DNA from: Prochlorococcus marinus CUG1433
Lineage (GTDB): Bacteria > Cyanobacteriota > Cyanobacteriia > PCC-6307 > Cyanobiaceae
DNA length: 64,000 nucleotides
Direction: 5' to 3'
Assembly: GCA_017644425.1 (NCBI GenBank)
Contig: JAEPLN010000001.1
Location: 124,001 to 188,000, forward strand
Shown: positions 55,826-61,118 of the stretch, in pieces
Layout of the letters: every line of letters begins with the position of its first letter
How positions within the stretch are numbered: position 1 is the first letter of the stretch
Position numbers and translations under genes: made by a program
Notes under the pieces: model-generated
What the model was told of the DNA's origin: nothing
Seen by the model: the letters and a program-made list of their open reading frames with translations, nothing else
Database searches by the model: none

Positions 55826-57148
55826 ATGGAAAACAGACAAATTAATTTTTTTAAATCAAAAGACTTTAATACCGTTCTTAAGCCATTTAAAGAAGGAACG
55901 GTGGTAAAAATTGACTCGTTAGATATTAGAGAAAATCAGAATGAATTAAAAATAGGTTTATTTGGTTGGTATGCAATTTGTCCTTCAAAAGAACTAAAAA
56001 AAAATAAGCTACATTATTTTTCACTCTATGATGAACCTCTCGTTCTTTATAGAGATGAGAATGAAAATGTTAGATGCATTAAAAATATTTGTCCACACAG
56101 GGGAGCATCCTTTTTTGGGGGGAACTTATCAGATGGAGTATTAACCTGTCCATATCATGGTGCCAAATTCACATCTAGTGGAAGTTGTCAAAATCTCGAT
56201 AGGATAACATGCAGTCATATAGTTGATAACAATTACGATAACTACGCCAAAAGAATTCACTTATCTCAATACAAAGCATTAGAAAAGAATGAATATGTTT
56301 TTGTACATTTTTCTAAAAAACCAGATACTGATTTAAAAAATATAAGTGAAGATTCACCCATAAGTAACTACGAATTATCAGATAATGGTTTTTTACATGA
56401 TGATTATGTGTCTGAGGAGGTATTAGTTGACTTTAAATGTGATTGGTCAAGAATAATTGAAAATCACTTAGATATCCTTCATCTTTTTTGGGTTCATGGC
56501 GATACAATCCCAGATAAAGATGTTAATAAAAACGTACTAGTTAGTTTTAACCAGAAAATTAATGTTTCTCCCAATCACATTGAAAGTATCTATTACTATA
56601 AGAATGATCCTAGAAAAGAATTTATTCGGATAAAATACATCCCACCAGGAAGGATATTAATTTATAAAGGGGATCCTTCTCTAGCTAGATATTTACAAGT
56701 CTTAGATCATATTCCACTAGGGAATAACAAAGCCAGAGTAATAGTAAGGCACTACAGGAAATTTTTGAGAAATAAATTACTTAATAATCTCTTGTTATTT
56801 AAAGAGACTCAACGGAAGATTTTTTATAAGATATTTGATGAGGATTATATGATATTAAAAACGCAAACGTATAATCACAATATGGGATTTATAAGTAAAG
56901 ATGAAATTAAATTATTGGGAGAAGACAGAATAATAAATTATTTTTGGAAATGGTACAAGAAATCTGAAGATAGAGATAAACCATGGAAAAATATTAATAA
57001 TGCCCAAAATCTTGATGTATACGACAAAGTTATATTGAAATACCCTCCAGAGATAAAAAAATTAGAAATCAAAAATAATATAGATATTATTAGAAAAACA
57101 TTTTTAAGATTCGCTGCGCCATTTATAATTTTTATATTAATAATATAA
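55826..57148 (+). CDS. Rieske non-heme iron oxygenase (pheophorbide a oxygenase-like)
   Basis: 440-aa protein. The Rieske [2Fe-2S] site is CPHRG (Cys89, His91) and CPYHG (Cys108, His111). The mononuclear iron site lies in ENHLDILHLFWVHGD (~212-226), with the usual D-x2-H arrangement. A C-terminal hydrophobic segment (~428-440) would anchor it in a membrane, as in PaO, TIC55 and chlorophyllide a oxygenase. Substrate unknown; chlorophyll breakdown or tetrapyrrole modification is one option. A 36-aa membrane peptide gene and an ABC ATPase gene follow at 3 bp and by overlap, so they likely form an operon. Very rich in Asn, Lys and Ile, at the AT-rich end of the window. Confidence 0.85.
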   Translation: MENRQINFFKSKDFNTVLKPFKEGTVVKIDSLDIRENQNELKIGLFGWYAICPSKELKKNKLHYFSLYDEPLVLYRDENENVRCIKNICPHRGASFFGGNLSDGVLTCPYHGAKFTSSGSCQNLDRITCSHIVDNNYDNYAKRIHLSQYKALEKNEYVFVHFSKKPDTDLKNISEDSPISNYELSDNGFLHDDYVSEEVLVDFKCDWSRIIENHLDILHLFWVHGDTIPDKDVNKNVLVSFNQKINVSPNHIESIYYYKNDPRKEFIRIKYIPPGRILIYKGDPSLARYLQVLDHIPLGNNKARVIVRHYRKFLRNKLLNNLLLFKETQRKIFYKIFDEDYMILKTQTYNHNMGFISKDEIKLLGEDRIINYFWKWYKKSEDRDKPWKNINNAQNLDVYDKVILKYPPEIKKLEIKNNIDIIRKTFLRFAAPFIIFILII

Positions 57149-57151
57149 ATT

Positions 57152-57262
57152 ATGAAGCAAGTAAATAGACCTTCATGGTTGAATTGGCTTTATCTTTTTA
57201 TATTTATTTTAAGCTCAATTCAATTGATTATATTTTGGGGAAGTAAGTTTAGTGGTCAATAA
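57152..57262 (+). CDS. Small membrane peptide, 36 aa
   Basis: ATG 57152, 3 bp after the Rieske stop, opens 36 codons: polar start MKQVNRPSWLNW, one helix (LYLFIFILSSIQLIIFWG, ~13-30) and a short polar end. Its last codons overlap the GTG start of the ABC ATPase by 11 bp, an arrangement of translational coupling that supports coding. Function unknown. Confidence 0.6.
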   Translation: MKQVNRPSWLNWLYLFIFILSSIQLIIFWGSKFSGQ

Positions 57263-58040
57263 GTTTTGGTTTGAGGCGAGAAATATAAATTGTTTTAAGG
57301 ATGGTTTTAGAGTAATTAAAGATTTAAATTTAAAGATAGCCTACTCAGAGAACGTAATATTAATTGGACCAAACGGTTCAGGGAAATCATCTTTAATAGA
57401 AGTAATTAATAGAAACATATACCCAGTTATAACGAATGAATCAAAACTTAAAATATTTAACAAGGAACTAATAAATTTATGGGAACTAAGAAAAAGAATA
57501 AGTACCGTTAATAATGATATTAAAAATAGAATAAATCCAAATCTTAAAATTATTGATGTAATTTTAAGTGGACTATATGGAAGATATTGTTATATACAAA
57601 ATAAATCTGAAAAAGATATAAGTAAGGTGGAAAAAATCATGAAAAATATGAATATATCAAATTTATCAAATAAAAAATTTTCCTATTTGTCAGATGGAGA
57701 AAAACAAATATCTATTATTGCAAGAGCATTAATAAAAACTCCAGACATATTAATCCTTGATGAGCCAATTGCAAATTTAGATTATAAATCAAAGTATTTT
57801 GTAATTGACAAGATTGATGAACTATCAAAATTAGATACAAAAATATTATGTGTAACTCACAATATTTCAATGATTACGAAGATTTATGATAGGGTCATAA
57901 TGCTAAAAGGTGGTGAAATAATTGCTGATGGGAATCAAAATAAAGTTATTAATAGTGAAAATCTAAATAAGCTATATGGGATTGATATAGAAATAATTAA
58001 AAATAATGGACTTTGGACTATAAACAGATTATCTAAATAA
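57252..58040 (+). CDS. ABC transporter ATP-binding protein
   Basis: 262-aa single nucleotide-binding domain. Walker A is GPNGSGKSS (~40-48), the signature is LSDGEKQISIIARAL (~146-160; SDGE variant), Walker B is ILILDEP (~166-172) and the switch His is in VTHN (~199-202). The start is GTG 57252. No permease is encoded beside it, so it is an orphan; the small coupled membrane peptide and the Rieske oxygenase are its only operon companions. The ModF/YlmA-like type is possible. Composition is extremely rich in Ile, Asn and Lys. Confidence 0.8.
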   Translation: MVNKFWFEARNINCFKDGFRVIKDLNLKIAYSENVILIGPNGSGKSSLIEVINRNIYPVITNESKLKIFNKELINLWELRKRISTVNNDIKNRINPNLKIIDVILSGLYGRYCYIQNKSEKDISKVEKIMKNMNISNLSNKKFSYLSDGEKQISIIARALIKTPDILILDEPIANLDYKSKYFVIDKIDELSKLDTKILCVTHNISMITKIYDRVIMLKGGEIIADGNQNKVINSENLNKLYGIDIEIIKNNGLWTINRLSK

Positions 58041-58297: not shown

Positions 58298-58367
58298 TAT
58301 GATAATGAGAATCTATTGCAATAAGTTTTTTTTTAGTGCATAATTGATAATAATTCTCATTATCATA
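58298..58367 (+). promoter_or_regulatory. Promoter bracketed by two Fur-box-like sites (CRP-family gene)
   Basis: Two sites resemble the 19-bp Fur box GATAATGATAATCATTATC: 58301-58319 (14/19) and 58346-58364 (16/19). They are also arms of a perfect 15-bp inverted repeat, 58298-58312 and 58353-58367. Between them is a sigma-70-like promoter, TTGCAA (58316-58321), a 17-bp spacer and CATAAT (58339-58344), so one site covers the -35 and the other the start site. The gene begins at 58377. This strongly suggests iron-dependent repression. Confidence 0.75.
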
Positions 58368-58376
58368 TTTTAACTA

Positions 58377-58964
58377 ATGAATTTCCATAGTTATGGAGAA
58401 TCTCCTACAAAGTCTGTAAGAATAATAACTGGGCAATCCGTTTTAATAGATCCTTCATCGAGACCTAAGGGGACATGCTTAGAAGTTGAAAGTGGAATAG
58501 CTAGAGTTTATTGTCCATGTGAAGAAACTGAAGGAATGACTCTTGCTTTTTTGCAATCAGGTGATCAATTAAGGACAGACCTCTTGTGTAGCGAAGGTGT
58601 CTGTGTTGAAGCTTTAACAGATTTGTCTTTTCATAGCAATGTAAATATTGATGAGAATATTGGTTTCGATGCAGTAAATGAATGGACGTTGCAACTCCTT
58701 AGGATTAGACACTTAGGAAATGCAGAACAGCGATTACAAGCCTTGTTTTCAATACTAGTAAATCGTCTAGGTAGAAGATGTGGTCAATGGTGTGAGTTAC
58801 CTTTTAGATTAACTCATGAAAGAATTGGCGAATTAATAGGTTCTACACGAGTAACATCTACAAGATTAATTTCGAAATTAAGATCATCTGAGTTATTAGT
58901 AGCTCCAATTGGCACCCAGACAGTAAGTGTTGCTCCTTCCTTTATTGAAACATCACCACTTTAG
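58377..58964 (+). CDS. Cysteine-rich CRP/FNR-family transcription regulator
   Basis: 195 aa: an N-terminal cupin-like effector domain (~15-90), a dimerisation helix (~100-132) and a C-terminal Crp-type winged helix with recognition helix in HERIGELIGSTRVTSTRLISKL (~147-168, quoted in part as IGSTRVTSTRLISKL). It is not NtcA; the cNMP phosphate cassette is missing. Seven Cys occur, mostly in pairs: C34, C46/C48, C71/C76 and C135/C139. This could mean Fe-S or thiol sensing, but no Fe-S family pattern is proven. The promoter has twin Fur-box-like sites, so it is probably iron-responsive and may relay iron status to other genes. A small gene starts 3 bp downstream. Confidence 0.8.
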   Translation: MNFHSYGESPTKSVRIITGQSVLIDPSSRPKGTCLEVESGIARVYCPCEETEGMTLAFLQSGDQLRTDLLCSEGVCVEALTDLSFHSNVNIDENIGFDAVNEWTLQLLRIRHLGNAEQRLQALFSILVNRLGRRCGQWCELPFRLTHERIGELIGSTRVTSTRLISKLRSSELLVAPIGTQTVSVAPSFIETSPL

Positions 58965-58967
58965 AAA

Positions 58968-59258
58968 ATGAATCAATCACAAACACTTACTAACAGCTTG
59001 TTAATGGAAATTGATGTATTATCAAATAGACTCAGAAACATAAAACAATCTTTTATAACTACTCACAATAAATCTTTGAAAGAGAGGTTAATTTCTGAAA
59101 ACGAAAATATTTTTAAAAGAGTAAATGAAATTTATAAAATTGCTGAGCTCTTAGATAAAAAAAACATGGAAAAAACAAACTTTTCAAATTTACTTTTTGA
59201 AATATCAAAAAGGACATTGAATGAAAATAAATTTGAAAGTAATTTATTTTTTCTTTAA
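58968..59258 (+). CDS. Hypothetical helical protein, 96 aa
   Basis: Starts 3 bp after the CRP-family gene, so probably co-transcribed from the Fur-type promoter. It is predicted almost entirely helical, with heptad-like patterns (LLMEIDVLSNRLRNIKQSF, ~11-29, and further on), and contains no Cys. Its last 15 bp overlap the convergent ferritin gene. Function unknown. Confidence 0.6.
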   Translation: MNQSQTLTNSLLMEIDVLSNRLRNIKQSFITTHNKSLKERLISENENIFKRVNEIYKIAELLDKKNMEKTNFSNLLFEISKRTLNENKFESNLFFL

Positions 59259-59798
59259 ATCACTATCTATTAATAAGATTGCCGAAGGTTGATTTGAAGC
59301 AAACTTTACCTTGCCCAGTATGTTGGCAAATTCATCTTCTGATTGTGTTTGAGCTTCTATAATTGGATCTAAGAATACGTTAGTTCTTGTATCTGAAATT
59401 CTTTCTGATATGGAATAAAGTTGTTGTAGAGATGAAGTTAAATCAGCCTCCATATTAAAAGAATAAGAAATGAGCTCCTCTATAGAACCCCATGTTTGAA
59501 CGGGTGCAGGAATTTCATCTAATTTTACGCTTTGTCCTCTTGCGATTAAGTAATCTGCAAATTTCTGAGCATGTTCCATTTCACCTTGTGATTCACTAAG
59601 AAAATGAGAGGCAAATCCATTTAAATCACGTTCTTGAAACCATAGATAAATAGAAAAATATTGAACATTGGCATATCTTTCCATTGTTAGATGTTCAAAA
59701 ATGTTATCCAACAAACTTTTGTCTATCGGTTGAGCAACAGCTCTTCCAGATGGACCGAAATTAACTAATTTTTTTGTTTTTAAGTTATTTTCATTCAT
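59244..59798 (-). CDS. ftn: Ferritin
   Basis: 184-aa four-helix ferritin. Ferroxidase ligands are visible: Glu40 in LTMERYANVQYF, and Glu73/His76 in QGEMEHAQKF (E-x2-H); a further Glu in the third helix (~EELISYSFNMEADL) and Gln/Glu in SQSEDEF complete the site. It stores iron as a mineral in a 24-mer. An N-terminal extension (~1-24) is longer than in minimal bacterial ferritins. A Fur-like box lies ~85 bp upstream of its start. Confidence 0.93.
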   Translation of the reverse strand: MNENNLKTKKLVNFGPSGRAVAQPIDKSLLDNIFEHLTMERYANVQYFSIYLWFQERDLNGFASHFLSESQGEMEHAQKFADYLIARGQSVKLDEIPAPVQTWGSIEELISYSFNMEADLTSSLQQLYSISERISDTRTNVFLDPIIEAQTQSEDEFANILGKVKFASNQPSAILLIDSDLKKK

Positions 59799-59882
59799 TT
59801 TCAGATAAGTATCTAAGAAAATAATACAACATTTTGTATAAATTAGTAATTAATAAATCCTTTAAATTAAATTAAATAATAT

Positions 59883-59901
59883 GATAATGAAAATCACTCG
59901 C
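59883..59901. promoter_or_regulatory. Fur-box-like site between ferritin and the Cys-rich peptide
   Basis: GATAATGAAAATCACTCGC matches the 19-bp Fur consensus at 15/19 positions, with an intact left half and a weak right half. It is ~85 bp upstream of ferritin (minus) and 10 bp upstream of the 40-aa Cys-rich ORF (plus); a TACTAT (59904-59909) -10-like sequence lies beside it. It could serve either gene. Confidence 0.5.
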
Positions 59902-60041: not shown

Positions 60042-61118
60042 CTATATATATACCTTATGCGCTCCAGGATATAAAAAATAATAACTATTTTTATTTATAG
60101 AAAGTAAACATTTATCACCATTATTTAGGAGATTATTAATATCAGTTCTAACCCGCAATATGTTTCCATTAATAGTTACTTTATATATAAGAAATTCTCC
60201 AAGAAATTCTTTAGATATTACATTCGCATTTCCAGATTTTGATCTTTTAATTGAAATAAATTTAGGCGAAATTGACATACTTTTAATATTTGAATTTTGT
60301 AAAACCCCTGAACTATTTATTTCACCTAAACAAGACATATATGAATTACCATTTTTTTGAAGATTAATAATATTATTACCCAAAATAAAACTACTAACAA
60401 ATAGTGTCTTGGGATTGTTTAGAAGGTTAATTGGTGTATCAATCTGATGTATTTTTCCTTCATTCATGACGGCAACTTTATCGCAAATTGACATTGCCTC
60501 TTCCGGATCATGAGTAACCATCAATCCACTTGCATTACAACCATTTAGGATATTTGGGAGTTCACTTCTTAATTTTAGTTTGACATGCATATCAAGACTA
60601 CAAAATGGTTCATCTAATAAAATAAAATTAGTACCAGGAGCAAGAGCTCTCGCAATTGCTAGTCTTTGTTTTTGGCCTCCAGATAATTCATGTGGGTATC
60701 TTCCAATAAAGCTATCAAGACCTACAACATTTAATAAATAGTCAACTCTAGATCTATCTTTTTTGTTTTTTAAGCCAAAAATTACATTTTCCAAAACGGT
60801 TAAATGAGGGAAAAGTGCATAGTCTTGAAAAACCATACCAATATTTCTTTTCTCAGGACTAAGAATTTTTTTTCCACTTGAAATTTCCTTATCATTTAGA
60901 GAAATCCTCCCTTTAGAGGGATATTCGAACCCCGCGATTAATCTTAAAAGAGTAGTTTTTCCGCAACCAGAAGGGCCAAGCAACCCTAACAATTCGCCAT
61001 TTTCAATTGTCAGGTTAATTGCGTTTAATATCCAATTTGAACATTCTCGCTTATCATATTTATGATGCAAATCATCAATTATTAACGCCTCATTTTTCAC
61101 TAAGATCTTCTTATTCAA
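60042..61118 (-). CDS. futC: Iron(III) ABC transporter ATP-binding protein (FutC/FbpC type)
   Basis: 358 aa. Nucleotide-binding domain with Walker A GPSGCGKTT (~48-56), Q-loop VFQDYALFPHLTV, signature LSGGQKQRLAIARAL (~144-158), Walker B FILLDEP (~164-170) and switch VTHD (~198-201); a C-terminal regulatory region (~235-358) with TOBE-like folds. This architecture fits the Fbp/Afu/Fut ferric iron importers. No permease or binding protein is adjacent, as in Prochlorococcus, where these genes are scattered. Location between ferritin and nth supports an iron role. Confidence 0.85.
   Translation of the reverse strand: MNKKILVKNEALIIDDLHHKYDKRECSNWILNAINLTIENGELLGLLGPSGCGKTTLLRLIAGFEYPSKGRISLNDKEISSGKKILSPEKRNIGMVFQDYALFPHLTVLENVIFGLKNKKDRSRVDYLLNVVGLDSFIGRYPHELSGGQKQRLAIARALAPGTNFILLDEPFCSLDMHVKLKLRSELPNILNGCNASGLMVTHDPEEAMSICDKVAVMNEGKIHQIDTPINLLNNPKTLFVSSFILGNNIINLQKNGNSYMSCLGEINSSGVLQNSNIKSMSISPKFISIKRSKSGNANVISKEFLGEFLIYKVTINGNILRVRTDINNLLNNGDKCLLSINKNSYYFLYPGAHKVYI

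Follow-up and report, generated by a model that had tools for sequence, protein, structure and literature searches.

Iron limits the growth of phytoplankton in large areas of the ocean. Promoters repressed by regulators of the Fur family generally carry Fur boxes over the −35 region and the transcription start. In Synechococcus elongatus, the iron-stress gene idiA is regulated by IdiB, a protein of the CRP type. CRP-family proteins bind even palindromes, such as GTA-N8-TAC and TGTGA-N6-TCACA; the former is bound by NtcA, for which a class II layout with N22-TAN3T is also known, and FNR is marked by an N-terminal cysteine cluster with characteristic spacing. Judging from the literature that we searched, little is known of the way in which Prochlorococcus, with its small set of regulators, governs its response to iron. 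Thompson's 2011 array study reportedly dealt with iron starvation in strain MED4, and a 2026 preprint is said to describe regulatory modules of the same strain. Our search of open-access papers found none describing the CRP gene reported here or its operator. The Fur of MED4 is PMM0637 according to PMC4079066. According to PMC9337993, Zur of marine Synechococcus belongs to the Fur family as well and has boxes that are similarly AT-rich, two of them predicted at bmtA; the Zur consensus palindrome given there for picocyanobacteria is AATGATNATCATT.

Here we describe a Fur-type operator in front of a gene for a cysteine-rich CRP-type regulator of Prochlorococcus marinus CUG1433 (genome, 1.70 Mb). 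It lies in a 64,000-nucleotide stretch of DNA, positions 124,001 to 188,000 of contig JAEPLN010000001.1, the whole of which was analysed and is called the window (G+C, 30%). By our account, a CRP-type iron regulator would be nothing new, with IdiB as a precedent that works in a like manner, and Fur boxes over promoters would count as ordinary; what seems to be new is the breadth of the operator's conservation, together with the uncharacterised cysteine-rich subfamily under its control. Such a conserved operator on such a gene is a testable candidate for a second layer of the iron response, and directs attention to the CRP promoter, the neighbouring ferritin gene and possible target sites. Coordinates are given in Table 1.

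Table 1. Features of the operator, the CRP-type gene and its downstream neighbours, in window positions
Feature	Position	Strand	Remark
Left repeat arm, 15 bp, forming the core of site 1, TATGATAATGAGAAT	58298..58312	+	Exact reverse complement of 58353-58367
Site 1, Fur-like (14/19), sharing bases with the −35-like TTGCAA	58301..58319	+	
Promoter-like TTGCAA (58316-58321)-N17-CATAAT (58339-58344)	58316..58344	+	Positions counted on the letters
Site 2, Fur-like box, 16/19	58346..58364	+	
Right arm of the 15-bp inverted repeat	58353..58367	+	Exact reverse complement of 58298-58312
Gene for a CRP/FNR-family regulator of 195 aa, from the Cys-rich picocyanobacterial subfamily	58377..58964	+	
96-aa ORF, 4 bases past the last base of the CRP stop codon	58968..59258	+	No family match
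Ferritin, convergent with the CRP gene	59244..59798	-	
Fur-type box before the ferritin gene, reading TGATTTTCATTATCA on the - strand	59882..59896	-	
ABC transporter ATPase	60042..61118	-	PhnT2 tops the NCBIfam models but misses its cut-off; ferric and putrescine models score lower

The original prediction described a perfect 15-bp inverted repeat, two Fur-like sites with scores of 14/19 and 16/19, and a TTGCAA-N17-CATAAT promoter surrounded by the repeat; arms, scores, hexamers and spacer were all reproduced on the letters (Table 1). The arms are separated by 40 bp, their complementarity stops at the outer ends, and they form the only perfect inverted repeat in the window of at least 15 bp with arms at most 80 bp apart. 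When matches to the Fur consensus GATAATGATAATCATTATC were counted out of 19, reading the plus strand, the window reached 14 at six places, 15 at two and 16 at one, the last being site 2. The first four bases of TTGCAA fall within site 1, and site 2 begins 2 bp past CATAAT, its 7-1-7 core (TGATAATAATTCTCA, 58345-58359) lying directly behind the −10 element. Fur-type boxes are placed at the −35 region and just past the predicted −10 element. At Fur-repressed promoters, the same type of box has the same placement over the core promoter, from which repression by occlusion would be expected; the operator described here is unlike these in that, within the high-light clade, its outer halves are exact inverted copies of each other, and in that site 1 extends with its inner half into TTGCAA. 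Perfect 15-bp repeats with a spacer of at most 60 bp appeared in 4 of 60 windows simulated from a first-order Markov model, so the repeat alone is roughly a 1-in-15 event per window, and conservation is stronger evidence than the repeat itself. The inverted repeat with its twin boxes is a real feature of this DNA and is very probably functional.

The CRP gene was present in 178 collected loci; 176 include 130 bp of upstream sequence, and these yield 148 distinct upstreams. Of these, 108 are called high-light, a working label for a CRP protein at least 85% identical to that of the window and not a typed clade, and 40 are called other; we take MIT 9201, MIT 9314 and MIT 9107 to be high-light strains. 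A 13-bp version of the repeat, TGATAATGAGAAT-N38-42-ATTCTCATTATCA, is kept in 104 of the 108 high-light upstreams, with TGATAATGAGAAT present in 105 and the exact core TGATAATAATTCTCA in 100, and the best arm-to-arm register is identical in all 108 and in 26 of the 40 others. Site 1, GAGAA(T/C)C-N2-TTGCAA, was found in 107/108 high-light and 39/40 other upstreams. Its form differs outside the high-light group, where (T/G)CTATTGAGAATCG-N-TTGCAA occurs in 29/40, and under a loose pattern TTGCAA stands in the site-1 register in all 148. Site 2 is correctly spaced from site 1 in 107/108 high-light and 32/40 other upstreams, and these latter have TTC(T/G)CA at site 2 in 32/40, 28 of them with TTG(A/C)GA as the left half. 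It was unrecognisable in the remaining eight, seven from genera g34 and g86, which are nearest the high-light clade by CRP identity, and the eighth at locus L071; the twin arrangement is therefore not essential everywhere. Site 1 is present in nearly every locus examined; of the two, site 2 is more dispensable. In one high-light genome (L048), much of site 1 is gone whereas site 2 remains. Across the 148 upstreams, the sequence between the sites is variable while the sites are conserved.

Co-evolution of the two arms between clades was considered and found unsupported, as the arm-to-arm match in 32 non-high-light genomes did not rise above permutation (1512 of 5000 reached it). On visual inspection, aligned non-high-light loci also show a recurrent TC(G/T)CAACAA-like stretch about 15-20 bp upstream of site 1; it resembles the right half of site 2 and is possibly a third half-site.

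Fit to the 7-1-7 box was measured on the 12 fixed letters of TGANANTCATTNTCA against first-order shuffles. At least 11 letters matched in 107/108 high-light CRP upstreams (shuffles 1.2%) and 5/40 others (shuffles 0.25%), and at least 10 in 108/108 (9.0%) and 18/40 (2.6%), so that many non-high-light CRP promoters fit the box loosely. The same type of box stands at the ferritin gene: upstreams matching at least 11 of the 12 letters made up 51/51 of the high-light rows (here again a working label, for a ferritin at least 78% identical) and 21 of the 35 other distinct rows, compared with 0.2% and 0.4% of shuffles.

In 40 fetched loci, the genes flanking the CRP gene were surveyed to a distance of at most about 3 kb in either direction. 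Ferritin is its convergent neighbour in 34; beyond ferritin and on the same strand, the ABC ATPase follows in 26, whereas it lies on the other strand in 3 (L076, L085 and L090) and was not in range in 11. An iron role for this ATPase is putative, because every NCBIfam model scored below its cut-off. The 96-aa ORF, perhaps co-transcribed with the CRP gene, has a similar counterpart in 4 of the 40 loci, three of the four high-light. Upstream of the operator, at 55826-58040, the window has a Rieske oxygenase and a further ABC ATPase; a Rieske homologue (55%) also precedes the CRP gene in L072 and L075.

Ferritin and the CRP gene also tend to occur in the same genomes. Among 29 hand-picked genomes, 14 of the 17 with the CRP gene have a ferritin of the window's type (E below 1e-45), as have none of the 12 without it; these counts are uncorrected for relatedness, and adjacency can cause joint loss. 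The counts leave aside five g36 genomes without a full CRP gene (G103, G230, G312, G321 and G385), of which G103 and G230 have C-terminal CRP fragments, those of G103 at contig ends. Seven incomplete high-light genomes (52-84% complete) lack both CRP gene and ferritin, so missing contigs explain the CRP absence there as well as loss does. PMC9723758 describes field Synechococcus ferritins of which some rise in low iron and others in high iron, and Fur control of one ferritin is therefore not odd. Another genus (G159) has an island with porin-, piuC- and ferredoxin-like genes in which a futA-like gene and ferritin flank a box of the operator's type (all names except ferritin by reading).

The gene behind the promoter had been called a CRP-family regulator, and the protein bears this out, with PF13545 and PF00325 both over cut-off. 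Pfam matched its DNA-binding domain only, with no match to an effector domain, and the AlphaFold model (pLDDT 84.5) has the CRP fold; a Crp-type helix-turn-helix and this fold together place the protein in the CRP/FNR family. The top structural matches are mostly NtcA structures (TM about 0.7, identity about 20%). The protein has seven cysteines, at positions 34, 46, 48, 71, 76, 135 and 139. An alignment of 92 rows, many of them nearly alike, has C46, C48, C71, C76 and C139 in every row, C135 in 91 and C34 in 90; in 21 diverse rows, C46, C48, C71, C76, C135 and C139 are all invariant. The motifs that hold them (CPCEETEGM, LCS-G-C and C-G-W-C) are absent from 12 aligned cyanobacterial homologues outside the family. 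The five cysteines invariant throughout suggest that the protein may sense a metal, an Fe-S cluster or thiol redox. An N-terminal cysteine cluster of the FNR type was not found in the protein, whose cysteines (34-139) lie outside any N-terminal extension.

Among described proteins, IdiB is a functional analogue, being likewise of the CRP/FNR type and linked to iron genes. In a tree of 40 rows, a split supported at 100/99 separates the cysteine subfamily (own branch, 94/89) and a second picocyanobacterial CRP type from IdiB-like, CysR-like, isi-linked and NtcA-like proteins; the tree is midpoint-rooted and has some long branches. The IdiB-like reference, L323, which was named from its place beside an idiA homologue, groups with CysR-like proteins and not with the cysteine subfamily, and it has neither the CPC nor the C-x4-C motif. 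Orthology to IdiB is not supported by this tree, with the rooting, the long branches and the naming by position kept in mind. Identity with PtrA (NCBIfam NF053664, 41.7 bits against a cut-off of 300) or NtcA (TIGR03697, 30 bits against 244.95) was rejected, both matches covering the DNA-binding region only. These proteins have the fold and the DNA-binding helix in common with the window's regulator, whose identity to NtcA structures is about 20%, and the genome has a separate NtcA-like protein (named by reading). The recognition helix itself is NtcA-like, GSTRVTSTRLI as against GSTRVTITRLL.

Other CRP-type genes were met near iron and sulfate genes. The second picocyanobacterial type, 30-35% identical to the first, lies about 2-3 kb from it or in iron-type gene islands (L067, L070, L073, L087, L090, L324 and L327). 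Homologues from cyanobacteria outside the family (29-34% identity) stand near isiA/isiB-, feoB- and ferritin-like genes in L119, L121, L122 and L124, where genes were named by reading and with one flavodoxin HMM; that in L120 adjoins a hydrolase resembling the one in L119. Still other homologues lie within sulfate-transport operons, as CysR does.

We consider it probable that the two sites are an operator for a metal-responsive regulator of the Fur family, most likely Fur itself, by which the CRP gene would be repressed when iron is replete and expressed as iron falls. In iron-replete cells, metal-loaded Fur would occupy site 1, over the −35 region, and also site 2, over the transcription start, and this double occupancy would block RNA polymerase. 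A drop in iron would allow synthesis of the CRP-type regulator, which is thus probably switched on under iron shortage and may then act on iron genes. We infer Fur as the binder, repression by binding, the position of the transcription start and the action of the CRP protein on iron genes. A PF01475 search found two Fur-family genes in the genome; one lies inside a cluster read as znuA/znuC/znuB (zinc), which has a box of its own, and the other is the candidate Fur.

Fur-family boxes for different metals look alike, and the operator could instead belong to Zur, with zinc rather than iron controlling the CRP gene in the high-light clade, a reading that we regard as unlikely. Its strength lies in the high-light promoters (n=108), which match the consensus given in PMC9337993 at 13-14 of 16 letters (shuffles: mean 10.6, maximum 13), so Zur stays a candidate in that clade. 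Moreover, exact TGANAATNATTNTCA occurs at two places in the genome, the core of site 2 and the znuA/znuC intergenic box. Boxes persist in CRP-lacking genomes, and the exact TGATAATCATTCTCA ones that are readable there, as in other genera, lie mostly at znu genes and therefore point to Zur there. Outside the high-light clade, however, the CRP operator is a poor Zur box, since the best scores of the 40 other promoters on that consensus are 10-12 of 16 (shuffles: mean 8.9, maximum 12), whereas 13 Zur-type sites, twelve at znu genes and L287 at a CobW-like gene (names by reading), score 12-16, and the divergent znu promoter of this genome, AATGATAATCATTTTCATT, scores 16/16. Only in the high-light clade does the CRP operator resemble a Zur box. 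The marine Synechococcus Zur boxes of PMC9337993 further differ in the centre of the palindrome, AATGATNATCATT, and in having zinc targets, and the neighbour of the CRP gene is ferritin, not a zinc gene. Fur is favoured as the binder because ferritin adjoins the CRP gene and has a box in common with it, and because the Zur fit is poor outside the high-light clade. Of the iron-repression architecture originally predicted for this gene, the Fur-type twin operator stands; it is conserved, and the gene's convergent neighbour, ferritin, has a like box. Specificity for Fur is less secure in the high-light clade, given its match to the Zur consensus.

A further reading takes the repeats as sites at which the CRP protein regulates its own gene, with site 1 at a class II activator position. 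Site 1 is centred at 58310, near −41 if transcription is assumed to start near 58351, and TTGCAA beside it, in every one of the 148 upstreams, is kept more than a plain −35 hexamer seems to need. Yet the sites are odd 7-1-7 repeats of the Fur type, in contrast to the even palindromes of the CRP family, and the GTA-N8-TAC that the NtcA-like helix predicts occurs in 0 of 148 upstreams of the CRP gene; we hold autoregulation to be improbable. We judge it very improbable that the repeat arose by chance as an AT-rich palindrome, or forms a hairpin in the transcript, with no part in DNA binding. The simulated windows show that such repeats do arise by chance, and TGANAATNATTNTCA with one mismatch matches the genome 36 times, compared with 25 for a reversed control. 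But chance would not account for conservation over 148 distinct upstreams in which the sequence between the sites varies, and a hairpin would be at odds with site 1 lying upstream of the expected start, which would leave only one arm in the transcript.

The genes isiB and futA could be supposed to be controlled by Fur directly. At isiB, the best Fur-box scores in 18 loci (L165-L182) were 10-13/19, at scattered places, and at futA 10-12/19 in 15 upstreams (L293-L306 and L308, with L307 left out); none was both clear and conserved, and direct Fur boxes at these genes were rejected on these scores. Conserved palindromes are present. All 18 aligned high-light isiB upstreams contain GTA-N8-TAC, against 1.7% of shuffles, and N22-TAN3T comes next in 15 of them; at futA, GTAACCATAGATAC stands near the start codon in 15/15 upstreams, with an ATACA-N6-TGTAT palindrome farther upstream in 13. 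From its NtcA-like recognition helix, the CRP protein could bind GTA-N8-TAC, and so could NtcA; because NtcA is known to bind this motif, the palindromes are leads only. CRP-type palindromes without a clear Fur box fit a Fur-to-CRP relay as originally predicted, with NtcA as a possible alternative binder. A bolder extension, possible but doubtful, is that the CRP protein, ligated through its cysteines, is a second iron sensor: Fur would gate its synthesis, its own Fe-S cluster or thiols would report on the cell's state, and the protein would drive isiB, futA and low-iron genes through CRP-type palindromes. Were this so, the high-light clade would have few direct Fur targets, ferritin and the CRP gene among them.

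The one-mismatch pattern, at 36 matches against 25 in the control, is too weak to define a Fur regulon. Of 19 matches that were read, a crude ORF caller placed 13 within ORFs; the other 6 fall in gaps, the znu box among them. A one-mismatch Fur/Zur-like box was also seen upstream of a HupE/UreJ-like gene (named by reading), both in this genome (L149:1979-1993) and in another genus (L265:1501-1515).
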